DNA of 64,000 nt from Candidatus Methanogranum gryphiswaldense (GTDB lineage: Archaea > Thermoplasmatota > Thermoplasmata > Methanomassiliicoccales > Methanomethylophilaceae), in NCBI GenBank assembly GCA_019262145.1, contig CP076745.1:555093-619092 (forward strand), in the 5' to 3' direction. Positions within the stretch are counted from its first letter, which is position 1, and each line of letters begins with the position of its first letter. The notes below the pieces were generated by a model. That model did no database searches. It was not told the origin of the DNA and saw only the letters and a list, made by a program, of their open reading frames with translations. This document shows, in pieces, positions 3,906 through 32,621 of this stretch. The position numbers were made by a program, and so were the translations under genes.

Positions 3906-3926
3906 GTCTGCGTTCTAGTCGCAGGC
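3906..3926 (+). promoter_or_regulatory. Leader hairpin of the DEAD-box helicase gene
   Basis: GTCTGCG (3906-3912) pairs with CGCAGGC (3920-3926) around a seven-base loop, with one T-G pair. It lies about 29 bases before the helicase start codon. A TATA-like GTATTTAAAAGG near 3863 would start a transcript at about 3890, placing the hairpin in a leader of roughly 65 bases. A role in cold- or RNA-responsive control is only a guess. Confidence 0.4.
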
Positions 3927-9123: not shown

Positions 9124-9207
9124 GTCAAACATATGTGGGATATAACGCGAATAAAAAAATGTTGCCATTGGAACGTGTGTGCGCGCACAAGTGTTGAAGT
9201 TTGAAAA

Positions 9208-21910: not shown

Positions 21911-21985
21911 GGGCCCATAGCTTAGACCGGCTGGAGCGCCCGGCTGATAACCGGGAGGTCGTGCGTTCAAATCGCATTGGGCCCA
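21911..21985 (+). tRNA. tRNA-Ile(GAT)
   Basis: 75 bases with acceptor GGGCCCA/TGGGCCC, anticodon stem CCCGG/CCGGG around CTGATAA (anticodon GAT), and a T-arm with GTTCAAATC. Discriminator A; CCA not encoded. Its 3' end is the integration site of the 10.6 kb element: the last 12 bases plus one recur at 32609. Confidence 0.96.
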
Positions 21986-21986
21986 C
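21974..21986 (+). repeat. attL core
   Basis: Left copy of the 13-bp repeat GCATTGGGCCCAC, covering the end of tRNA-Ile, so the tRNA stays intact after integration. Confidence 0.88.
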
Positions 21987-22087
21987 TCATTTTGTTACCC
22001 AGATGTTCGTTTTTTTAACTGAATAGATTTCTTCATTGTTTTTGTTATATTTGGTTTTTATTATGCAATCTTTATTTCTCTTTTAAA

Positions 22088-22194
22088 GTTAACATGTTAA
22101 CAATATTACTATATTTTTAATATATCTGGATGTATGATTTTTATTAGAATTAATTTGTTAACTTTGAGTTAACTTTTGAAACATTTTTGTTAAC
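22088..22194. promoter_or_regulatory. Cluster of five GTTAAC palindromes beside attL
   Basis: GTTAAC occurs at 22088, 22096, 22157, 22168 and 22189 in 107 bases, with a near copy (GTTAAT) at 22210. The interval 21987-22424 has no gene and is otherwise plain AT-rich sequence. A second GTTAAC cluster lies just before the integrase. Integrase arm sites or regulator operators are the likely readings. Confidence 0.6.
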
Positions 22195-22424
22195 TTACAT
22201 CTTCTTTTTGTTAATTTTCTTTTAATTTAGTATCGTATCTAATAGATATGAAATAGAATACCCTAATTATTTATTAAACTCGAGATCAAAAATAATTTAC
22301 ACTGTGCTGTGATTTTTTAGATTTAGTTGATAGGTAAATCCAATTAAAAAAGTAATTTTTTTTTGAGATAGAGATTTTGAAAGCAATCAAAATAGCATCA
22401 TTTTATTTTTGTATTAGCTTATTT

Positions 22425-23069
22425 TTACGAAGGGGTTAATATTCTTCCATATGCGGTGCAAATATGTTCTTTTTTACAATCACATTTCCAAATATGTATT
22501 TCTGAAAATATTTTTTCGGGAGATGTTATTTCAAATTCTATTTTATTTTTACGATGTGAATATGGACAACTGAATTCTACGTTCAGAATTACTCCCAGTT
22601 CTTCAGTTTGCGATTCGTTATTGTTTGTAGATTTTAATGATGGTTTTAGATCATAAGGTAATTTACAATGATTAGCGACAATCAAAGAAATGGTTTCCGA
22701 TATTTTAAGAAATTTTATATCTTCTTTTACAAGTGCATTATGTAAATCGTTGTGGTCTCTAATCAGTAATGAAAATTTTTTTATTGTGTCTGTGTAGACT
22801 AGTGTGGGTACTTGATAAATTATTACAGTAGGTTTTGGTTTTTTTACAAGAATGCCTTTTTGTTCTAATGATTTAAAAGCTTCTTTCATTTTCTTATATT
22901 TATGTGTTGGTATTGATTGAAGGAGATCATTTTCTGAAATTTCTTTTCCACCTCCAATTCCTGCAGAGACCAATCTGCGGAAGACTAGCCACTCATAGTT
23001 ACTATATTTGGTGAGGCAATCTATTTCCCCATTCGTGATGTCTGGCCACCATTTTCTTATCTCGAGCAT
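22425..23069 (-). CDS. Winged-helix protein with a C-terminal cysteine cluster
   Basis: 214 residues. The N-terminal 85 residues (YSNYEWLVFRRLVSAG, EISENDLLQSIP, KMKEAFKSLEQKGILVKK, TVIIYQV) have the helix-turn-helix plus wing pattern of MarR-like regulators. The C-terminal part carries CPYSHRKNK and WKCDCKKEHICTAYG, which could bind zinc. Divergent from the next gene across 45 bases holding TATA-like sequences on both strands, so it may control that promoter. No specific family recognised. Confidence 0.6.
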   Translation of the reverse strand: MLEIRKWWPDITNGEIDCLTKYSNYEWLVFRRLVSAGIGGGKEISENDLLQSIPTHKYKKMKEAFKSLEQKGILVKKPKPTVIIYQVPTLVYTDTIKKFSLLIRDHNDLHNALVKEDIKFLKISETISLIVANHCKLPYDLKPSLKSTNNNESQTEELGVILNVEFSCPYSHRKNKIEFEITSPEKIFSEIHIWKCDCKKEHICTAYGRILTPS

Positions 23070-23114
23070 TCAATAACATTATATATTTTACTTATATATA
23101 GATATCTCATTACA

Positions 23115-23780
23115 ATGAGTTGTCTAATCACAATGACTAAATATAGTATATGTGATATTAGCGGTGCAGAGGCAACAGAAATGAGGACCCCTCAAGAGAT
23201 AGTAATGACTATCGCATATTCATTGAAAGATGGGAAGAAGGGAGATGAATATTCGGTAGCAGACATATCGAAAAGTACACAACTTCACTACATGACGACA
23301 AGCGATTACTTGAGTCTTATAGAGTATATCCAAGAGAATATACCAAAAATAAATAAAATTGATTCAAGGGGCAAAGCTAGAATCGTCATAATAAATGAAA
23401 TGGAATCAGACTATTCTCAAAAGGAGAAAATAATGCTAACTATGTTTGATAAGGCGGCATTCAGTAAAGATTCGGCACTTGTTATAAAAAATGCAGAAGA
23501 CTGCATAGATGCCGCCATATCTGAAAAATTAGTACTTGAGTCCATAAAGGGAAGATATTACCTTACAACTAACGGCATAATGGAAGCTGCGAAATTTGCG
23601 GAAAAGAGAGCAGAAAAAATGATGGATTTGAGTGTAAAATCTAAAAAAGAATGCCTAAATTATGAATTAGAAGATAAAGAAGAAGTGTGGCATAAGTGCA
23701 ATGACTGTTTAGAAAATGGCTACAAACAAACAGGAATTACAGATACAATACGCTGTCTTCCATCTTCTCTTGCAGCTTAA
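23115..23780 (+). CDS. Winged-helix-type regulator of the element
   Basis: 221 residues. The N-terminal 80 residues (TPQEIVMTIAYSLKDG, YSVADISKSTQLHYMTTSDYLSLI, INKIDSRGKARIVII) look like a winged helix. A second helical part and a short HKCNDCLENG cysteine motif follow. A TATA-like CTTATATATAG at about 23089 would give a leaderless start at 23115; the ATG at 23133 is an alternative. Divergent from the winged-helix gene to its left and followed after 15 bases by a DUF3467-like gene, probably one operon. Confidence 0.55.
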   Translation: MSCLITMTKYSICDISGAEATEMRTPQEIVMTIAYSLKDGKKGDEYSVADISKSTQLHYMTTSDYLSLIEYIQENIPKINKIDSRGKARIVIINEMESDYSQKEKIMLTMFDKAAFSKDSALVIKNAEDCIDAAISEKLVLESIKGRYYLTTNGIMEAAKFAEKRAEKMMDLSVKSKKECLNYELEDKEEVWHKCNDCLENGYKQTGITDTIRCLPSSLAA

Positions 23781-23795
23781 TAGTGGGGGATTAGG

Positions 23796-24113
23796 ATGGA
23801 AAATATAGAAGAAAAAAAACAACAAATAAAGAAGGGAAGATCTCAGTCGTTCTCTAAGGTATATGCAACCAATGTATTAGTCTCGGAAACTGACTCAGAT
23901 GTCAGATTGTATGGATTTAATGAAATTCTAAATATAGACGATACAGAAAAAGTAGCGATAAGCGATGGAGAATTGATATTAACATTCTCTGCGACAATTC
24001 TCCTTTACGAACAATTGAAAAAGATAGTAGAAAAATGGAATGAAACAGATAAGAAAGTGGAAATTTCAGAAGTTAGAAGAGCAACATTAGAGAATTTATT
24101 GAAAGATTTCTGA
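23796..24113 (+). CDS. DUF3467-like small protein
   Basis: 105 residues. FSKVYATNVLVSETDSDVRLYGFNEI, a short gap, then ELILTFSATILLYEQLKKIVEKW follows the DUF3467 pattern of a beta-rich half and a helix that begins after a strand. Function of that family is unknown. It lies 15 bases after the winged-helix gene, with AGG directly before the ATG. The match is by pattern only. Confidence 0.5.
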   Translation: MENIEEKKQQIKKGRSQSFSKVYATNVLVSETDSDVRLYGFNEILNIDDTEKVAISDGELILTFSATILLYEQLKKIVEKWNETDKKVEISEVRRATLENLLKDF

Positions 24114-24639
24114 ACTATATCTTAAACCCTTTAAAATTCGTAATTATTTTATTTCTTCTTGTTGATTCTGTTAAAGGTCTGAGAGAAGAACAGAGTATAA
24201 GATTTCTCTGCTCATCAATTCTATTGGTCATAATAATTTTTATTTAGGATTGTATGGCTGATCTCCAGACGAATCAGGATGTTTTCGACGTTAGTCATCA
24301 GGAGTTCGAAATTCTGTCACTTTTCTTTGATAGCTTTAGATAGCTAATATTTAAAATGGATGTCGTCGAAAGGGATTCTAGATCTAGTTTGTAAAATAGC
24401 AAAATTTCTAAAGAATCGTAACAATCCTAATGCAATCGGACATTCTTCCTTTGTGCGGTCGTCCGCTATATGGATTTAATCCAATATTATGCCCATCTCT
24501 GGAGATAGATATACATTGATATTTTTGGGAGGATTCTTCTTTTCGTAGGCAGTCTCTTTTCTCCGGATATAATGTTATCGTTTCCTCATCGTATTATTTC
24601 GGTTCTCATTTAAACTATGTCCTATTTCTTAGGTCATGC
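24114..24639. other. Gene-free stretch of the element
   Basis: 526 bases between convergent genes. The best frame is a 29-codon one (24254-24343, ATG to TAG), too short and without a convincing ribosome-binding site. The stretch leads into iteron array C. The whole interval could be a replication origin or a decayed gene. Confidence 0.5.
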
Positions 24640-24769
24640 GATATTATCGGCCCGGCCGGAATATACGACGCACACATGATGCGCATGCGCGCAGTGGCTT
24701 CTCTGCATATATGCCGATAATATCTGGGCATTATCGCTGTTTTATCGGTGTGATATCGGGGGTTTATCG
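24640..24769 (+). repeat. Iteron array C (11-bp phased TATC repeats) with flanking inverted repeat
   Basis: TATC recurs at 24721, 24732, 24743, 24754 and 24765, exactly 11 bases apart; the last four read TATCG. An inverted CGATA (24715-24719) adjoins the first. An 11-bp inverted repeat, GATATTATCGG (24640-24650) and CCGATAATATC (24714-24724), encloses 63 bases that include a GCGCATGCGCGC palindrome. Phasing at one helical turn is typical of sites bound by several copies of one protein, as in plasmid origins and partition centromeres. Confidence 0.75.
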
Positions 24770-24789
24770 ACCTTAAAATGGGTCTTAAT

Positions 24790-25194
24790 TCAGGTGGTTT
24801 CTTGTATCTTTTGATCCTGTTTCGACAGGTTGATGGCATCGTTCACGGCGTTCTCTATATCTTCAGAACTGCTTTCCTCTATCTCGGCCTTCTTAGGCAG
24901 CTGGTATCTGAAGGATATCCCTTTGAACAATGATTCTAGGTCTTGATCTCTGATTAGATCCAATTTCTCCGGCGGTAGGTATTTCCAAAGGACAGCAGCG
25001 ATCTTTATCGAATCGGCCACTATATCCGGTTTGGAACGTCCGTCCACAATGTGGATGAAGTCGATTATAACGATCGTCTCCGACGGCAGAAGATAAGCCC
25101 TCGTCTTGGCCGGTTCTTTATGTTCGATATCTTGAGAGTGCTCTGTCTCTTTGTCGTGTGCATTGTTCTTGGGATCCTCTGATCTTGTGGCCAT
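24790..25194 (-). CDS. Probable ribbon-helix-helix protein
   Basis: 134 residues. After an acidic, polar head (1-30) comes RAYLLPSETIVIIDFIHIVD and then a helix GRSKPDIVADSIKIAAVLW, matching strand-helix-turn-helix of RHH DNA-binding dimers. The C-terminal 40 residues are charged and flexible. GAGG lies at suitable spacing before the ATG. It sits between iteron arrays C (downstream) and A/B (upstream), making it a candidate binder of those repeats, similar in principle to ParR or omega repressors. The fold call is tentative. Confidence 0.5.
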   Translation of the reverse strand: MATRSEDPKNNAHDKETEHSQDIEHKEPAKTRAYLLPSETIVIIDFIHIVDGRSKPDIVADSIKIAAVLWKYLPPEKLDLIRDQDLESLFKGISFRYQLPKKAEIEESSSEDIENAVNDAINLSKQDQKIQETT

Positions 25195-25390
25195 ATCAAT
25201 GTCCTCATAATTGGTTTAGATCGTTACCGCCATGCGGTTTAGTTGTATCGATGATCGACATAACGGTAATTGTGGTCGTTTTGATCATAATATACCTATA
25301 CAATATCGTGATTGATTTTTGATTTATAATCTATATGAAATCTTAGATTTTCTTTTAAAATTTGGTTGTCGGCGGATATACCGTGTATAG

Positions 25391-25454
25391 GTGCATGTAC
25401 GCGTAATGTAGGAAAGTTTCGTTTTTCGAAACATATACGCAACTTTTATGAAAC
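25391..25454 (+). repeat. Iteron array A with upstream box
   Basis: The 24-base box at 25391-25414 matches array B's box at 20 of 24 positions, all four differences being transitions. It is followed by an inverted GTTTC (25416-25420) and direct repeats GAAAC, GCAAC, GAAAC at 25428, 25439 and 25450, spaced 11 and 11. GTTTCG and CGAAAC can form a hairpin over TTTTT. Confidence 0.7.
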
Positions 25455-25477
25455 TTTTTTAAGAGTCCCAATATCAT

Positions 25478-25732
25478 TTAAGCATCAGATATTTTGATAT
25501 GCTGGGTATCTTTTTGTTTTTCCCATCTCAAATTAAAAGAATAACTATCAACGAAACTTAATTGAACATGAAAATTAGGATATATTGACATCCATTTATG
25601 ATAACAGATCTCTGATTCTGTTAGCGACATACATTTAGAATATGATTCGAAATGTCGGTCGGCGATTATATCACGTATGGGCGCATATACGTGTAATATA
25701 GGAAGTGTCGAAAAATCGACATTTTCCGACAT
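25478..25732 (-). CDS. Doubtful 84-residue reading frame overlapping iteron array B
   Basis: The frame is open and has ATG and TAA, but its first 25 codons lie inside array B, whose sister array A has the same DNA pattern with a one-base shift that breaks the frame. The conservation there is therefore of DNA, not protein. No family recognised and no Shine-Dalgarno site is evident. Listed because nothing else occupies the stretch. Confidence 0.25.
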   Translation of the reverse strand: MSENVDFSTLPILHVYAPIRDIIADRHFESYSKCMSLTESEICYHKWMSIYPNFHVQLSFVDSYSFNLRWEKQKDTQHIKISDA

Positions 25733-25741
25733 TTTATCGAC
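25681..25741 (+). repeat. Iteron array B with upstream box
   Basis: The box at 25681-25704 resembles that of array A. It is followed by an inverted GTCG (25707-25710) and direct CGAC repeats at 25717, 25727 and 25738 (spacing 10 and 11), each followed by ATTTT. GTCG and CGAC form a hairpin over AAAAAT. The core differs from array A (CGAC against GAAAC) while the layout is the same. Confidence 0.7.
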
Positions 25742-26028
25742 ATTTTTATGTTGATTGATTTAAACACGTGGTTTAGTAAAAATACTATGCTGGGTATGAT
25801 GTTAATAATCTTTATTCTTTATTAATTTCATTGTTTGAACCGAGATAAATTCGCTATCGTACATAAATTAATTAAATTGCTTCTGGGTATTTATGATTTT
25901 AATCATATTCATATTTTTAAAATTATCAATGACAGGATTGGATTCGAATAAAAATATTGGATTAAGTTTCATTACATTAATAATTCCCTAAAAATTCTTG
26001 CTATATTTTTTCAGTATGGTAATCAGAA
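25742..26028. other. Gene-free AT-rich stretch
   Basis: About 290 bases of AT-rich sequence between array B and the double-RHH gene. No frame, hairpin or repeat stands out. Confidence 0.5.
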
Positions 26029-26523
26029 TTAGTCACATTTAATGTCTTTAACATGAGGGATTTCTCCATCATAAATACAAGGCGTAGGATAGGGATACTC
26101 TAAATCATCTATTTCTGTTCTAAATATTATGTATTCACTTAATGCATAAATTGCAAAATTTCTTACAGTTGTGTTGTCAGTATTTCCAAATAAAGGCAGG
26201 TCGAACGATCCATCATAAGCATATTCACACATTACAAAAATCTCTGTTAAAAATCCGTCTGGAATTCTAATCTGAATACTACATCCTGAACAAACATCTA
26301 ATTTAGCCCGTTCACACATTTTCTCGATGTATAATCTTAAGTCGTGGCCTGGTCCTCCGCAATACTCTATATTAAACTTATCATTTAAAAATCTTAAAGC
26401 ACATAAGAAAAAGTCAGGAACATTTGAGAACATACCCCTATCTTCGATGTACCGCTCAATCCACGCAACATATGAAGCGGGAACCGTAAATGCCCGTTTA
26501 ACGGTTTTTGTGGAATTACGCAT
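26029..26523 (-). CDS. Ribbon-helix-helix protein, possibly with two RHH units
   Basis: 164 residues. The first unit is VKRAFTVPASYVAWIERYIED then SNVPDFFLCALRFL, a strand and two helices of RHH type. A second, weaker unit may be IQIRIPDGFLTEIFVMCEYA then NTTVRNFAIYALSEYI. A cysteine pair CSGC lies between. Two RHH units in one chain would give a pseudo-dimer. Divergent from the 58-residue RHH gene across a region carrying two operator-like palindromes. Confidence 0.6.
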   Translation of the reverse strand: MRNSTKTVKRAFTVPASYVAWIERYIEDRGMFSNVPDFFLCALRFLNDKFNIEYCGGPGHDLRLYIEKMCERAKLDVCSGCSIQIRIPDGFLTEIFVMCEYAYDGSFDLPLFGNTDNTTVRNFAIYALSEYIIFRTEIDDLEYPYPTPCIYDGEIPHVKDIKCD

Positions 26524-26576
26524 AATCTGAAATCTCTTTTTCAGATATTATACCATCTAAAAAAATGTTTATAAAT

Positions 26577-26622
26577 TGTCTATTTAGACGAAATTATTTT
26601 ATACAATATTGTCGCTTTAGAC
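26577..26622. promoter_or_regulatory. Pair of operator-like palindromes between divergent RHH genes
   Basis: ATTGTCTATTTAGAC and ATTGTCGCTTTAGAC both have TGTC-6-GAC symmetry; the TGTC parts start at 26577 and 26610, 33 bases (three turns) apart. A TATA-like TTTTATAC lies between them, about 30 bases before the plus-strand ATG. Autoregulation by one of the flanking RHH proteins is the simplest reading. Confidence 0.6.
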
Positions 26623-26626
26623 AATT

Positions 26627-26803
26627 ATGGAAGATAAACGGATTTGTCCGAAATTTACTGAAAAAGAGATGTTGCAAATCGACACTATGGTTAAATCAGG
26701 ATATGGTCGGTGTCGTACAGATTTTGTTCGTAAAGCAACTATTATTTTTATTGAAAAAACGACTGAAAATACAGTTTCTTTAAAAAAGGAGAAGGGAGCC
26801 TAA
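26627..26803 (+). CDS. Small ribbon-helix-helix protein
   Basis: 58 residues, ATG at 26627 to TAA at 26801-26803. ICPKFTEKEMLQIDTMVKSG gives the strand and first helix, CRTDFVRKATIIFIEK the second helix, the standard RHH (CopG/Arc-like) layout, with a short lysine-rich tail. It is expected to dimerise and bind the palindromes just upstream. The promoter (TTTTATAC about 30 bases before the ATG) places the operators over the transcription start. Confidence 0.7.
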   Translation: MEDKRICPKFTEKEMLQIDTMVKSGYGRCRTDFVRKATIIFIEKTTENTVSLKKEKGA

Positions 26804-26905
26804 ATTCATATAACATTTAGACCAAAAAAGTCTGTTAAATGAGATAGCCAGATATAAATAAAAAATACAACAAAAACTAGATTGAAATTAGTAGGAGATA
26901 AATAA

Positions 26906-27217
26906 ATGAAACCATCACAAGTTGATACAGTCATTAGTACCTGGTTAAATCTGGGTGTAGCCAATAATTGTTCTATATCCACACTTAGTAGAGTAACTCC
27001 AGTGGATATTGCAGTATATTGCACTAAGAATAACCACCCAATGAAACCGAACAAGGCCATGAAGATCCTAAGGGAGTTGGGATTCGATGTCCTTAATGAT
27101 AGGATTTTCGGGAATGACTCGGATTTCGAGGAACGTCTGATCAAGACTATCAGGATGTTCGGTACTGATGCACAAATAAACCATTATTTAGAAGGAAGTG
27201 AAAAAAATGATAGTTGA
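26906..27217 (+). CDS. Hypothetical protein, first gene of the element's main operon
   Basis: 103 residues, mostly helical, no family recognised. PVDIAVYCTKNNHPMKPNKAMKILRELGF looks like a helix-turn-helix-type segment. AGGAGATAAATAA precedes the ATG, and a TATA-like GATATAAATA lies near 26850, so this is probably the promoter for the run of genes up to the replication ATPase at 30136. Confidence 0.6.
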   Translation: MKPSQVDTVISTWLNLGVANNCSISTLSRVTPVDIAVYCTKNNHPMKPNKAMKILRELGFDVLNDRIFGNDSDFEERLIKTIRMFGTDAQINHYLEGSEKNDS

Positions 27218-27554
27218 AAACATAGTAAGTTCAGAATCTGAAAAAATCTGTAATGAAAAAGAGAGGACAAAAATCGTTAATCTAAAGATAGACCAATCCA
27301 AAGTAAAGATGTTCATAGCGATAATGGATGGATTCAGCAAGTGTCACAATGTGAGTTTTGACGATACTATTCGGAATGAGAAAGTAGCAAACGAGATTGA
27401 GAAAGAGATAGAGGTCCTCGTCTCCAAATATTCAGTTGTTAGGAAGATGGATCCCAAGATTATACCGCAATTCATTGAACAGATCTATCCGGATCTCAAA
27501 GAGAAGATCATATCGATATCTGTTAAAGAAGAATCTGTTGGAACAGGTTGGTGA
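27207..27554 (+). CDS. Hypothetical helical protein
   Basis: 115 residues from the ATG at 27207; the start overlaps the previous gene by 11 bases. Charged and helical, with RTKIVNLKIDQSKVKMFIAIMDGF in the middle. No family recognised. It is followed four bases after its stop by an RHH gene. Confidence 0.55.
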   Translation: MIVENIVSSESEKICNEKERTKIVNLKIDQSKVKMFIAIMDGFSKCHNVSFDDTIRNEKVANEIEKEIEVLVSKYSVVRKMDPKIIPQFIEQIYPDLKEKIISISVKEESVGTGW

Positions 27555-27558
27555 TATT

Positions 27559-27765
27559 ATGGCAAAGATAGAGATAGAGATACCCGACGATATGCTGGCA
27601 CAGGCTAAATGGTATGTGGAGAACATGGACGATTATTACGATGATTTGAACGATTTCTTCATGACGGCCATAGAGAGCAATTTGGACATGTGCAACGACG
27701 AGACGATAGCGGTCAAAAAACCGTTCAAGAACTGTTTCTACGTTAGAGGAATGGTGGGAATATGA
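27559..27765 (+). CDS. Small ribbon-helix-helix-like protein
   Basis: 68 residues from the ATG at 27559, which has GGTGAT upstream; the frame itself runs back to 27436 inside the previous gene. IEIEIPDDMLAQAKWYVENM and then DDLNDFFMTAIESNLDM follow strand-helix-helix of RHH proteins, but the middle turn is acidic. Its stop overlaps the next start by four bases. Confidence 0.55.
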   Translation: MAKIEIEIPDDMLAQAKWYVENMDDYYDDLNDFFMTAIESNLDMCNDETIAVKKPFKNCFYVRGMVGI

Positions 27766-28130
27766 TCGCTGGAGATCAGGCCTTAGATACTCTTTTTGAA
27801 GAGAGGATCAACAGGATCATGGACGAGACGGATCTCGATATGGAAGATTCGGACGAGAGGACAGAGATAGTGAAAAGATTGGCCAATAAACTTTTAACAA
27901 AATGTCAGCCAGATGCAGCCCCGGGAACATGGGGGGCCGATCAATTCTATCAGTTCATGGAGGAAGAGGTCGGTAATATGGCCTATCACGTTCTTGGCAG
28001 TTTGTACGAATCATTATGTTGGCATTTGGTCGCCGAATACGATGATGGACGCGAGGATAATGAACCGTTCCACGATATGGCCATAATGATACGCGTTCCG
28101 AACGTCGAACAGTGCCGCAGGATGTTCTAA
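27762..28130 (+). CDS. Hypothetical acidic protein
   Basis: 122 residues, helical and acidic, no family recognised. It overlaps the preceding RHH gene by four bases (ATGA), so the two are coupled. The next gene starts 25 bases later. Confidence 0.55.
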   Translation: MIAGDQALDTLFEERINRIMDETDLDMEDSDERTEIVKRLANKLLTKCQPDAAPGTWGADQFYQFMEEEVGNMAYHVLGSLYESLCWHLVAEYDDGREDNEPFHDMAIMIRVPNVEQCRRMF

Positions 28131-28155
28131 GGATAAGGGAAAGGGGTGTCGATAG

Positions 28156-28353
28156 ATGGAAGGCAAGAAGAATGGAGGTCTGAAGGTAATATCGGCAAAG
28201 GTCCCGGTAAGAACATACGATGAGTTGGAAAAAACGGCCGCAGCCCTGGAGATCAACAAGAACGAATTGATCAACAGGGCTGTCAGGCTCTACTTGATGT
28301 CATGCTCACAAGCGATCGAGGCGGTCAAACCAATTAACACGAGGAAGTTATGA
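28156..28353 (+). CDS. Ribbon-helix-helix protein (CopG-like)
   Basis: 65 residues. GLKVISAKVPVRTYDELEKTAAAL then INKNELINRAVRLYLMS is a clear RHH pattern, with the usual small-residue turn between the helices. AGGGGTG lies upstream of the ATG. Four-base overlap with the next gene. Probably the copy-number or operon repressor of the replication gene downstream. Confidence 0.75.
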   Translation: MEGKKNGGLKVISAKVPVRTYDELEKTAAALEINKNELINRAVRLYLMSCSQAIEAVKPINTRKL

Positions 28354-28631
28354 CAGAATACTTTACGAACCCTAAGGATAAATTCTTTTTCGAGAAAGTA
28401 AACCCGTTAAGATACACCCAGTCATACAACGGTTCGTTTACTCCCGATGGCAAGATAATAAGACTTAGGCCAATGCTAGTTCATGTTAGATCGGACGATT
28501 CTTATTTTTGGGCACCGTGTGAAGGGTGCGGAAAGGAAGGAAGAGACCTAAAGAGGATCGTCAAAGCGAACGGTTCAAGGATCCAATATCTTTGTTCCGA
28601 GTGCAGGATCAAGGGGAGAGGGAATCAATGA
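28350..28631 (+). CDS. Small zinc-ribbon protein
   Basis: 93 residues. CEGCGKEGRDLKRIV and YLCSECRIKG give two CxxC pairs about 24 residues apart in the C-terminal half, a zinc ribbon. Coupled by four-base overlaps to the genes on both sides, so it belongs with the replication ATPase and may be an accessory DNA-binding subunit. Confidence 0.65.
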   Translation: MTEYFTNPKDKFFFEKVNPLRYTQSYNGSFTPDGKIIRLRPMLVHVRSDDSYFWAPCEGCGKEGRDLKRIVKANGSRIQYLCSECRIKGRGNQ

Positions 28632-30136
28632 TCCATCCGTCCGATGGGAGGGCGGTCTACGAGTTCGAAGAAGTGGACGGCATCGTTAATTTTGTAGAAT
28701 CGCAAACGATATCGTGCGAACATACGCCGATAAGTAGAATACCGAAAGATAGAACGGACGTATGGGATTATTATTCTGCACACTGTTGGAAATTGCCGGC
28801 AAAGATCAATCCGCATCAAGATTGGAGTGGCATTTACATCAACCATGAGAATCCAGAAATGATACTTGGGTGGATCTCCGAAATAACAGGAAAGATCCTA
28901 AGGTTATTGGATAGAAGCATGTATTTCAAGGACGAAAGGCACCCTGCCCTTATCGTCAATTTCATTTTCAATACTTATCTCAAGGATGCTTTCGATTATG
29001 CGCCTCGCATAATCCTCACCGGCGGAACGGATTCGGGAAAATCCAGATTGCTAGAGATATTAGGGGAATTGAGTTATCACGGATTCCTCATTGTCAGGCC
29101 GACATTCGCCATAATGTTCAGAATGATTGATGCCTATAATACGACCCCAATAATCGACGAGGCCCAGAGATTGAGGGAAGATGCACGCAGGGATCTTGAG
29201 GACATATTTCTAAGCGGAACGCAAAAGGATGCAATGATACCTAGATGCAATAACAATTCATTGAAACCTGAGACTTTCAAGGTATATTCTCCGCTAGTAA
29301 TGAGCAATAAAGCAGGAACATTTACAGCTGAGGATATCGAAAATAGGGGATTCAGGATCAATCTGATACCAAATAGGATCAAAAAAATAGATCCCCTTCT
29401 GGATAAGGACGGATTCTTGGAGATCCGTACTGAACTGTACTCATTGCGTGCACTCTACAAGATGCATCCGGAATGTTTCGGATTGAAGGATCTTATAAAA
29501 GAGGCGATACACGAACTTACAGAGACCGATGATCAGGGGAACATGATCACAGATTTCATAAGGACCGATGGGGAAAGAGGCCGTCTAAAAAACAGATCGT
29601 TGCAGATAGCCATAACATATTACACCCTTTCAAAATTAACAGGCACGGAATCCGATATACTTTCATTGCTGACAGAGGAAGACAGGAACAACATGGAAAG
29701 GAACAAGGATACCAAAGAAGGTGCGGTATTCCGTGCGTACATCCAATGCTGTAAGGACAAATCAGAAGATTATCCCCTTTACGGATATCTTGATATCATG
29801 ACGTCCGTCAGCTCCAAAGAGATCCAAGAAAAATACAATTTGAATCTCTTGGAATCCGGAAATCAAAAGACCACTTTGGACCAGATAACCGCCAATAGCG
29901 TGTCCAGGACAATGAAGGACATAAGCCTTGAGATGTCCTATGATGCTGGAAAGGGAAGAGGTGGCCACAGGAACGGTGTCAAGATCGTCAAAAATCTTGA
30001 CGAATACATCTACATGAACGAGGACCGTTACGCCACCGAGATAGAATCTGAAATTTTAAGGGATCTCCACAGTAGAAGATCATTGAAAAAGTTAACTTCA
30101 AAGTTAACAGATAATGAGAAGTTAGCCGAAAGTTAA
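28628..30136 (+). CDS. P-loop ATPase, probable replication helicase/initiator of the element
   Basis: 502 residues from the ATG at 28628, which overlaps the previous stop by four bases. Walker A GGTDSGKS (132-139), Walker B TPIIDEAQRL (about 173-182), and a sensor-like YSPLVMSNKAG near residue 220 mark an AAA+/superfamily 3-type motor; LENRGFRINL-type residues follow. The C-terminal 150 residues look helical with a winged-helix-like end (GHRNGVKIVKN). Plasmid and virus replicases of archaea have this plan. No polymerase or primase active site is visible. GTTAAC sites fall inside its last codons. Confidence 0.7.
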   Translation: MIHPSDGRAVYEFEEVDGIVNFVESQTISCEHTPISRIPKDRTDVWDYYSAHCWKLPAKINPHQDWSGIYINHENPEMILGWISEITGKILRLLDRSMYFKDERHPALIVNFIFNTYLKDAFDYAPRIILTGGTDSGKSRLLEILGELSYHGFLIVRPTFAIMFRMIDAYNTTPIIDEAQRLREDARRDLEDIFLSGTQKDAMIPRCNNNSLKPETFKVYSPLVMSNKAGTFTAEDIENRGFRINLIPNRIKKIDPLLDKDGFLEIRTELYSLRALYKMHPECFGLKDLIKEAIHELTETDDQGNMITDFIRTDGERGRLKNRSLQIAITYYTLSKLTGTESDILSLLTEEDRNNMERNKDTKEGAVFRAYIQCCKDKSEDYPLYGYLDIMTSVSSKEIQEKYNLNLLESGNQKTTLDQITANSVSRTMKDISLEMSYDAGKGRGGHRNGVKIVKNLDEYIYMNEDRYATEIESEILRDLHSRRSLKKLTSKLTDNEKLAES

Positions 30137-30197
30137 CATATTGAACAAAATACAATCCAGATGTGTTAAAAATACGATAAAATGGTAACTTGTTAAC
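30091..30197. promoter_or_regulatory. Cluster of GTTAAC palindromes before the integrase gene
   Basis: GTTAAC at 30091, 30103, 30132 and 30192, with near copies GTTAGC (30121) and GGTAAC (30184). The cluster covers the end of the ATPase gene and the integrase promoter region, repeating the motif found beside attL. Confidence 0.6.
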
Positions 30198-30219
30198 TTT
30201 TACAGAGGGGAGAGAAAGA

Positions 30220-31242
30220 ATGACCAGTAGAAAGCCTTCGGACACGGCAGAGATCAAGGATTACAATGTCGATCTTCGCAGGGTAAGATTAGGTGCTAGG
30301 CCATTCAAAGCAGGGATACGCTATTATGAAGTAAAGAAACAGGCATATCTTACAGACACTACGATCGAAGAGAATGTCAGGAAGCTTTACTATTTTGCCG
30401 ATGTATTCAAGGACCTCAAAGCTCAGGGATTGGCCAAGACCACTGATCCCAGACACATAGGGGAATCAGAGATCGAGGCGTTCATGATTTTCATGAAGAA
30501 GAGAAAATTACAGAACTCGACCAAGAAAAAATACATGAGCATGTTGGATAGTTATTTGGGATTCTGGGAGAATCATATAATCCTGAACATGAAGAAACAG
30601 AACAAGTTCGTTTCAATGTCTAAAGGGGGATCTCACATACCAACATACATCGATGAGGACGATCTTCGTACGATTTTCGGGCATATTGAGAATTATCCAG
30701 GATATAACGGAATTATAATTCGTGGATTTTTTTCATTGATCTTCGGTATCGCCGGAAGGCCTAAGGAGATTATAGGGGCGTTGACATCGGATATGGAGAT
30801 AGAGAATGAGCAGTTTTATATTAGGCATCCTAAGGGAGAAGATTCATGGGGAATGCGTGAATGGATCTCCATTACAAGGAAGGACATGATACCAAAATTG
30901 GAAAGGTTTTTGGAAGAAAGGAAGGCCCATCTTGAGAGTATAGGATGTCAATCTGATTTCTTGTTTGTTAATCCAAGGACAGGTCAGCCATTTTCACTTA
31001 AGACCATAAGAGTGATAAAAGAGAATATTGAGAATGAACTGGATATAGATTTTAAACTCAAGGAATTCAGATCCTCATATGCTACTATTACGTACAAGCA
31101 TAACAAGGGAATGAAGGATGCGATCAGTAAGCAGCTTAGACATCTTCAGCCAAGTACAACCGATAAATATTACATAGCCTACGAGAGGAAGCAAGCATCA
31201 AAAGAATTATCGGATGAATGGAAAAAATCTAAAATAGAATAA
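30220..31242 (+). CDS. Tyrosine recombinase (integrase) of the element
   Basis: 340 residues from the ATG at 30220, with GAGGGGAG upstream; the frame itself begins at 30190. The N-terminal 130 residues form the SAM-like arm domain. Catalytic residues visible: arginine in IAGRPKEIIGAL, arginine in KEFRSSYATITY (the usual box II histidine is replaced by lysine), histidine in LRHLQPSTTDKYY, and the tyrosine nucleophile there. It should catalyse integration at, and excision from, the tRNA-Ile 3' end. The gene is not split by integration, and it lies about 1.4 kb inside attR. Confidence 0.88.
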   Translation: MTSRKPSDTAEIKDYNVDLRRVRLGARPFKAGIRYYEVKKQAYLTDTTIEENVRKLYYFADVFKDLKAQGLAKTTDPRHIGESEIEAFMIFMKKRKLQNSTKKKYMSMLDSYLGFWENHIILNMKKQNKFVSMSKGGSHIPTYIDEDDLRTIFGHIENYPGYNGIIIRGFFSLIFGIAGRPKEIIGALTSDMEIENEQFYIRHPKGEDSWGMREWISITRKDMIPKLERFLEERKAHLESIGCQSDFLFVNPRTGQPFSLKTIRVIKENIENELDIDFKLKEFRSSYATITYKHNKGMKDAISKQLRHLQPSTTDKYYIAYERKQASKELSDEWKKSKIE

Positions 31243-31326
31243 TTGTAACCCATCAAATTAGGTTATTTATGTTACTGTTTGGGCTATATTAAATAATTGA
31301 AATGACGATTGGAATGAGATTTCAAT

Positions 31327-32436
31327 ATGACAGATGATATCGATTTTACCAGTTATTTTAAAAGGCCTTTAGAGTCAATTACTGATTCAGATGTCTCTGA
31401 ATTTGTAAATAATTTTTCGGAAGGTCTTAATATCGAATACAAATCTATTGAAATATTAAAAAAGCCCTCAGAATTGTCCAATACAATTTCTGCATTCGCA
31501 AATTCTTCTGGAGGGATGTTATTTATTGGTGTTTCAGAGCCTGGTGAAGGTAATGATAAAAAAGAAAGAAAAATCGAATATACTAGTAACAAGACGCATA
31601 GTAAAGATTGGCTTTCTCAAAGTATTGTTGACAAGGTACAGCCAATTGTTAGAGGCATCAGAGTTTTACAGATATTTGACGTTAGTAAAGAAAAATGGTT
31701 TTTTTTGATATGTGTACCAAAAAGTGAAAATATACCACACATGACAAATAATAGGTATTACCATAGAATTGAAGCAAGATCAGTACCAATGGAACACTAT
31801 CATGTTTCAAATTGTTTTAATATGGTACAAAAACCAGTATTAATACCTTGTTTTTCTGTTAATAAAAAAGATAATGGTGATATGGAAGTAACATTTAAAA
31901 TTTCAAATGAAGGAAAAGCCATTTGTAAATGGCCATTTGCAAAAGTTGAATTTTTTGGTACTTTAATACATACTAATTCGTTGACTAAGTTTAATAATGA
32001 ATTTGGGTTGAGAGCTGATAGAAATCCACCATATATGCAATTATGTACGGGTAATATGGTTTTGTACCCTGAAACAACTCAAGACGAGTTTAGAATTACG
32101 CTTTTTAAATCATCGTACGTGCTTGTAAGAACAACATTAGCTGGTGAAAATTCGCCTTCTAAAGTTTATTTTTCATGTATTGATTCGATGCGCATTCCAT
32201 TTGGTAAAGGACTTATTTCGGTCGAACAGCCTAGACTAAAAATATTTCAAATATATGATGTAAAAGAATTAGAAAAGGAATATGGACTTTTATCTAAAGA
32301 TTCAAAAACAATAGATTCATTTTGTGAAATTTATTTTACTGGTACCATTCAAAGTAATTTATTTGCGGATTTGTCAACTGAAAAGAAAGAATTACTCAAA
32401 AAGATGATGCTAGATCAATTTGGTATAAAAAAATAA
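31327..32436 (+). CDS. Schlafen/AlbA_2-domain protein, cargo of the element
   Basis: 369 residues. The N-terminal 150 residues have the AlbA_2 pattern: EGLNIEYKSIE, AFANSSGGMLFIGVSE and NRYYHRIEARSVPM. The C-terminal 200 residues are beta-rich and unfamiliar. Related proteins include nucleic-acid-binding regulators and some defence proteins. Codon use is markedly more AT-rich than in the integrase next to it, suggesting a separate origin. TATA-like GGCTATATTAAAT lies about 45 bases upstream, so it has its own promoter between the integrase and attR. Confidence 0.8.
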   Translation: MTDDIDFTSYFKRPLESITDSDVSEFVNNFSEGLNIEYKSIEILKKPSELSNTISAFANSSGGMLFIGVSEPGEGNDKKERKIEYTSNKTHSKDWLSQSIVDKVQPIVRGIRVLQIFDVSKEKWFFLICVPKSENIPHMTNNRYYHRIEARSVPMEHYHVSNCFNMVQKPVLIPCFSVNKKDNGDMEVTFKISNEGKAICKWPFAKVEFFGTLIHTNSLTKFNNEFGLRADRNPPYMQLCTGNMVLYPETTQDEFRITLFKSSYVLVRTTLAGENSPSKVYFSCIDSMRIPFGKGLISVEQPRLKIFQIYDVKELEKEYGLLSKDSKTIDSFCEIYFTGTIQSNLFADLSTEKKELLKKMMLDQFGIKK

Positions 32437-32608
32437 TTTTAATTTTATCTGTTTTCATTATATATTTTAAAAAAGTTGTTTTGATTGTTTAACTTAAATA
32501 ATGTATAAATTTGATTAATAATAAGTTTTTTTTTGATTATTGGATTAATTTTAAAAGATAGTTATTAGAGTTATTTTTTTTCTATCTGGCTTTTGTTTTG
32601 TTCAATGT

Positions 32609-32621
32609 GCATTGGGCCCAC
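32609..32621 (+). repeat. attR core
   Basis: Right copy of GCATTGGGCCCAC, preceded by TTCAATGT where the tRNA has TTCAAATC. Confidence 0.85.

Follow-up and report, generated by a model that had tools for sequence, protein, structure and literature searches.

The integrated element and its genes

The stretch of DNA that we analysed (64 kb, hereafter the window) comes from the genome of the methane-producing archaeon Candidatus Methanogranum gryphiswaldense (G000), a single contig of 1.517 Mb. A 13-nt direct repeat, GCATTGGGCCCAC, is found at 21974, at the 3' end of a tRNA-Ile gene (21911-21986), and again at 32609, from which we take the interval 21974-32621 to be an integrated element. Its main features are the following.

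21974..32621, no strand: integrated element, 10.6 kb, bounded by the direct repeat
22088..22215, no strand: GTTAAC/GTTAA cluster, candidate replication iterons by comparison with the helicase family
24790..25194, minus strand: small RHH-like protein of 134 aa, an open reading frame with weak relatives
26029..26523, minus strand: second RHH-like gene, an open reading frame upstream of module B (see below) on the minus strand
28526..30136, plus strand: replication-type ATPase/helicase, with relatives in other genomes
30190..31242, plus strand: tyrosine integrase (PF00589, 1.5e-9)

The element also encodes several small RHH-like proteins and one AlbA_2 protein. Neither of the two RHH-like genes listed above matched Pfam, and the second was assigned from reading its N-terminus. 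Relatives of the helicase were found in 18 of 100 related genomes, and its only plasmid match was a weak one to Haladaptatus. Among the ORFs of the element that were scanned there was no recognisable virion gene and no recognisable ParA/ParM or SegA gene, and an Rfam search over 22-33 kb gave no match. The gene content is thus of the satellite type, with integration and replication genes present and virion and packaging genes absent. The pSSVx-type archaeal satellites, which are packaged by SSV helpers, similarly carry an integrase and a replication gene without virion genes; for the window element a helper, packaging, and particles would be predictions. Elsewhere in the window, an integrase fragment (953-1096, 40% over 48 aa to a provirus integrase) adjoins a tRNA-Gly gene (1153-1228) and is probably the scar of another element.

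Three modules with one layout and three core words

Within the element, three modules (A, B, and C) are built to a common plan. Each has a tract of 15 nt in which purines and pyrimidines alternate strictly, a single inverted half-site, and three or more direct half-sites spaced 10-11 bp apart. The layout is constant and the core word differs in each.

24640..24651, plus strand: outer inverted repeat of C, GATATTATCGGC, with a perfect partner at 24713-24724
24679..24693, no strand: alternating tract of C, ATGCGCATGCGCGCA, 15 nt, counterpart of the A/B box, from the tract scan
24713..24769, plus strand: inverted half of C, GCCGATAA, then TATC(G) five times in exact 11-bp steps, from repeat positions and a shuffle test
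25368..25414, plus strand: 47-nt box of A, holding the alternating tract GTGCATGTACGCGTA at 25391-25405
25416..25454, plus strand: inverted GTTTC of A, then GAAAC/GCAAC/GAAAC in 11-bp steps
25498..25509, plus strand: 12-mer TATGCTGGGTAT, copy 1, at the end of the A/B duplication unit and identical at both sites
25658..25704, plus strand: 47-nt box of B, holding the alternating tract GCGCATATACGTGTA at 25681-25695
25706..25742, plus strand: inverted TGTCG of B, then CGACA three times in 10- and 11-bp steps
25786..25797, plus strand: 12-mer, copy 2, identical at both sites

In C the TATC words start at 24721, 24732, 24743, 24754, and 24765. In A the inverted GTTTC (25416-25420) is followed by direct halves at 25428, 25439, and 25450 (steps of 11 and 11), and in B the inverted TGTCG (25706-25710) by CGACA at 25717, 25727, and 25738 (10 and 11). 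The boxes of A and B are 79% identical over 47 nt and 9 of their 10 differences are transitions, which keep the purine-pyrimidine pattern. The flanks of both modules (box and 12-mer) are alike but the arrays are only 26-50% alike at offsets of 288-291, so that the flanks have been conserved while the cores were switched.

An earlier note on this DNA had described the five TATC words of C exactly 11 bases apart and the 10-11-base repeats of A and B after an inverted copy, and both descriptions hold. It had also seen a 24-base box shared by A and B with transitions as its only differences; the box is real and extends over 47 nt, and the preserved purine-pyrimidine pattern explains the remark on transitions. 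The counterpart of the box at C, which it had placed mainly at GCATATA (24705), is instead the alternating tract at 24679-24693, and a GTTAA array at 22157, 22168, 22189, and 22210 had been missed. Its wider proposal of one plan with switched cores and diverged specificity is supported by related proviruses, in which the same plan recurs with other cores. Neither of the outcomes that the note had named as refuting it, a lack of recurrence or an equally good pattern in shuffled sequence, was observed.

A very short hydrophobic ORF (MLGIF... and MLGMM...) begins at each window copy of the 12-mer. In another genome, G038, the sequence CTGGGTATCTTTT also precedes an 11-bp array (L071, about 4005). 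A long degenerate 11-bp array of ca. 12 units, starting GTTAAC, lies there between divergent genes (L071, 4019-4150), and an alternating tract of 17 nt is found at 3917.

At lag 11, no self-match in the window is stronger than those of C and A. Scored for an inverted half followed by three direct repeats at 10-11 bp, A, B, and C reach 14, 15, and 15 of 15, values that none of 400 shuffles equalled in any of the three cases. Only four alternating tracts of at least 15 nt exist in the window, three of them at A, B, and C and the fourth at 9173, and between 20 and 33.9 kb those of the three modules are the only ones of at least 13 nt. We combined both features into a composite (the plan plus an alternating tract, 11 nt or longer, no more than 75 bp away) and controlled for chance by Markov simulation and by a whole-genome scan; reversed sequence is unfit as a control, since reversal and complement preserve these features. 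The simulation gave 3 hits in 60 windows (0.05 per window) versus the 3 seen here. The scan of the real genome gave 4 hits, which are A, B, C, and an unrelated one at 329911 that is due to chance. Compared as DNA, the A-C region had no match in phage and plasmid records, and among 100 related genomes it matched only itself.

The same module in related proviruses

Related Methanomassiliicoccales proviruses carry this kind of module as well, at a position immediately 3' of a gene whose product is a packaging-type NTPase ending in a helix-turn-helix (HTH). This intergenic NTPase-associated module was found in the present analysis, and the papers searched contain no prior description of it. There is one module per provirus, beside its NTPase, versus three modules and no NTPase in the window.

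NTPase homologues were detected in 15 genomes of the order, and most of the regions 3' of these genes show an alternating CG-rich tract plus an array. The cores vary: TATCG/GATAA arrays are found in G007, G016, G059, G010, and weakly in G051 (81 of 400 shuffles did as well), TGTTC in G090/RumEn M1, TTCGG in G018, TGTTAG in a second G010 locus (G010:C15), and TTCCGA, present only twice, in G008. In G032 and G043 the tract is present with no clean array, and several distant NTPase loci have neither. The exact plan of A, B, and C was found in G059, both G010 loci, G018, and G090, with scores of 14-15 of 15 reached by 0-4 of 400 shuffles. As a separate observation, nine perfect copies of GAGCCGATAAC stand at a contig end in G120 (L069, 1-97), where the assembly breaks within the array.

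Module C can be aligned along its length with the one in G059, and its local alignments reached z values of 8.9 (G059), 8.7 (G010), 5.1 (G016), and 4.9 (G007). The framing inverted pair of C, TATTATCGGC ... GCCGATAATA, is present in only one other genome out of 147, again G059 (G059:C2:239772-239853), where it closely follows a P-loop NTPase gene on the 3' side. Triplets of TATCG at 11 bp occur in 5 of 151 related genomes and the reversed pattern in none. Modules A and B align mostly to each other (z = 9.2) and less to G018 (z = 5.0 for A and 3.6 for B), with a CGCGTAAT..AGGA box common to A, B, G010:C15, and G018; the core of A or B was not seen in any provirus found.

Phased TATCG words are by themselves a poor guide, as 11-bp TATCG arrays are also present in 45 IMG/VR contigs without the NTPase of this family, so that only the composite is diagnostic. 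All three modules of the window have it, with a 15-nt tract within 75 bp and an inverted half plus three direct halves. What they do not share with the proviral copies is the position directly 3' of an HTH-fused NTPase gene. A translated search of the whole genome found no homologue of the NTPase nor of two membrane-protein families of the proviruses. The window modules are thus orphans that look like members of the family.

The NTPase, its helix, and the core word

Profile searches of the NTPase retrieved FtsK/SpoIIIE and STIV B204. Its AlphaFold model (pLDDT 86) had STIV B204 as first PDB match (E 4e-5; TM 0.54 by target), and among viral models it matched A32-like packaging ATPases. The C-terminus is an HTH. 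In PHROG there were weak matches to DnaA-like proteins (E 0.007-0.1), but both the profile and the predicted fold favour a packaging-type ATPase over DnaA. No NTPase of this kind was found in IMG/VR or phage records, and the same was true of the helicase. Three distant relatives (L157, L159, and L161) carry an extra C-terminal domain after the HTH that looks nuclease-like by eye.

The NTPase gene closes a conserved block of genes for surface and membrane proteins. Proviruses with pleolipovirus-type fusogens are known from Methanomassiliicoccales and belong to a virus group with a putative NTPase in its morphogenetic module (PMC10919331). The proviruses with the NTPase block are likely to be these same pleolipovirus-type proviruses, with VP3/VP4-like proteins, to judge from how alike the two blocks look; the window element, in contrast, has none of these genes. 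The model of the putative spike protein F1 had a pLDDT of 43, too low for a comparison with the VP4 fold.

All five NTPases that go with TATCG-type cores, including that of G051 with its weak array, have the helix RQGYVSE (HQGMVSE in G051), and the helices SQSRISKG, GRSTVTKA, AKSTVSEG, and SRSRVSQN accompany other cores. The core of C is that of the QGYVSE clade. A switch in specificity would be expected to give this kind of association, which covers about ten loci; it is not proof, as the TATCG group is a single clade and the association is confounded by common descent. The HTH of the NTPase is likely the binder of the half-sites in the proviral module. The arrangement would be similar to the small subunit of tailed-phage terminases, an HTH protein that binds phased repeats (pac) near its own gene, with predicted binding in our case and with the difference that the NTPase unites the HTH and an A32/B204/FtsK-type ATPase in one protein.

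Operators, origins, or chance

One alternative is that the modules are operators bound by the RHH or winged-helix regulators of the element itself (24790-25194, 26029-26523, and others), with cores that follow diverged paralogues. We regard this as possible but rather doubtful. The element does encode several RHH-like proteins, RHH dimers often bind sites phased at 10-11 bp, and C ends ca. 15 bp from the stop codon of the RHH gene at 24790-25194, while A lies ca. 190 bp before the start of the same gene. The case for this protein, which the earlier note had named for binding assays, is one of proximity; its weak relatives elsewhere have no module beside them, and the proviral modules have no adjoining RHH gene. 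Besides, on the minus strand C is not followed by any gene start, and in both G010 loci the order of array and tract relative to the neighbouring genes is flipped with respect to the other proviruses, which makes the module unsuited to be a simple promoter-operator.

In favour of operators, the AlbA_2-winged-helix genes of the order also carry arrays of their own with individual cores. Of 67 AlbA_2/HATPase_c_4 genes whose product ends in a winged helix, 21 have a private 9-13 bp array within 200 bp; among local controls the figure was 1 of 49, and among ORFs of the window's genome 0 of 1154 (p = 1e-27 in a pooled test that mixes genomes). These arrays closely follow (or precede) the gene, have a different core each time, and lack the alternating tract; they include loci L067, L068, L070, L072, L076, L080, L082, L085, L090, and L101-L104, among others. 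The link is strong and apparently unreported, and private phased arrays with gene-specific cores beside DNA-binding proteins seem to be common in the order. We also considered grouping C with the TATCG arrays 3' of AlbA_2 genes and rejected it; those arrays have no alternating tract, and the NTPase module is a much better match for C.

That A-C form a replication origin or a partition site, with iterons bound by an initiator or a centromere protein, was suggested in the earlier note, and we find it unlikely. Phased iterons with a tract of unusual structure do recall plasmid origins and the parC of R1, in several of the proviruses no helicase gene lies near the module, and the weak DnaA-like matches of the NTPase would also fit. 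However, the recurring site is 3' of an NTPase-HTH gene whose profile and fold are of the packaging type; neither a replication initiator nor a ParM/RHH pair adjoins it. The likeness to parC/ParR is best at C, where five 11-bp iterons stand beside an RHH gene, but among the ORFs scanned there is no recognised ParM-type or ParA ATPase in the operon, nor SegA in the element, the three cores differ, an alternating tract is present, and the proviral copies have no RHH gene.

Nor are A, B, and C the arrays that adjoin and are conserved with a replication gene. Helicase-bearing related elements share GTTAAC clusters instead, which in most cases directly follow the helicase gene at its 3' end (L022, L023, L025, L026, and L031), and none of the other helicase-type elements examined has a clean A/B/C module. 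The window element has such words too, in the cluster at 22088..22215 and as three GTTAAC at 30091-30132. The GTTAAC clusters are, by this comparison, more likely than A-C to be the replication origin. GTTAAC arrays at 11 bp also occur in G052 (L072) and G018.

It is very improbable that chance or decay left three unrelated AT-rich repeat patches, as short phased repeats without a tract number about 30 in the genome but with the tract only 4 are left, 3 of them within 1.1 kb, the same composite recurs in other genomes, and the shuffles and above all the whole-genome scan refute it.

Proposed orphan sites for foreign NTPases

The explanation that we prefer, tentatively and with somewhat less than even confidence, is that A, B, and C are orphan sites recognised in trans by HTH-NTPases of differing specificity, and that the element is satellite-like or a mobilisable plasmid. 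It lacks both the NTPase and virion genes, which is what makes its modules orphan sites. The half-sites, all on one helical face, would be filled by HTH domains, and the inverted half and the alternating tract would fix the start and the shape of the complex. In the proviruses the module would act as a packaging or loading site, at which the HTH places the packaging-type translocase on the provirus's own DNA. The copies in the window element would serve foreign NTPases acting in trans, perhaps the motors of helper viruses, or else the RHH regulators of the element itself. C would keep the TATCG core of one NTPase clade, and A and B would have diverged after the 290-bp duplication. We infer the binding of half-sites by the HTH, its service in packaging, and the existence of helpers for A and B from an anatomy, a rarity, a recurrence, a place 3' of the NTPase gene, and an absence of the NTPase from the window genome that were all observed directly.

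The triple module with its differing words suggests an element built for more than one partner protein or virus. Taken further, and here we are speculating beyond what we consider likely, it could be an archaeal satellite with three loading-site specificities side by side, each read by the NTPase of a different helper, in a system where the recognition sequence of the HTH is exchanged freely and the architecture of the site stays fixed. How viral packaging ATPases of the A32/B204/FtsK type pick their own genome is, to our knowledge, largely unknown. An ATPase family with its own DNA-reading domain, encoded beside a site of variable core and constant design, would make genome selection directly testable by domain swaps in vitro. 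If the interpretation is true, the orphan triple site in an element without virion genes would indicate that there are archaeal satellites serving several helpers.
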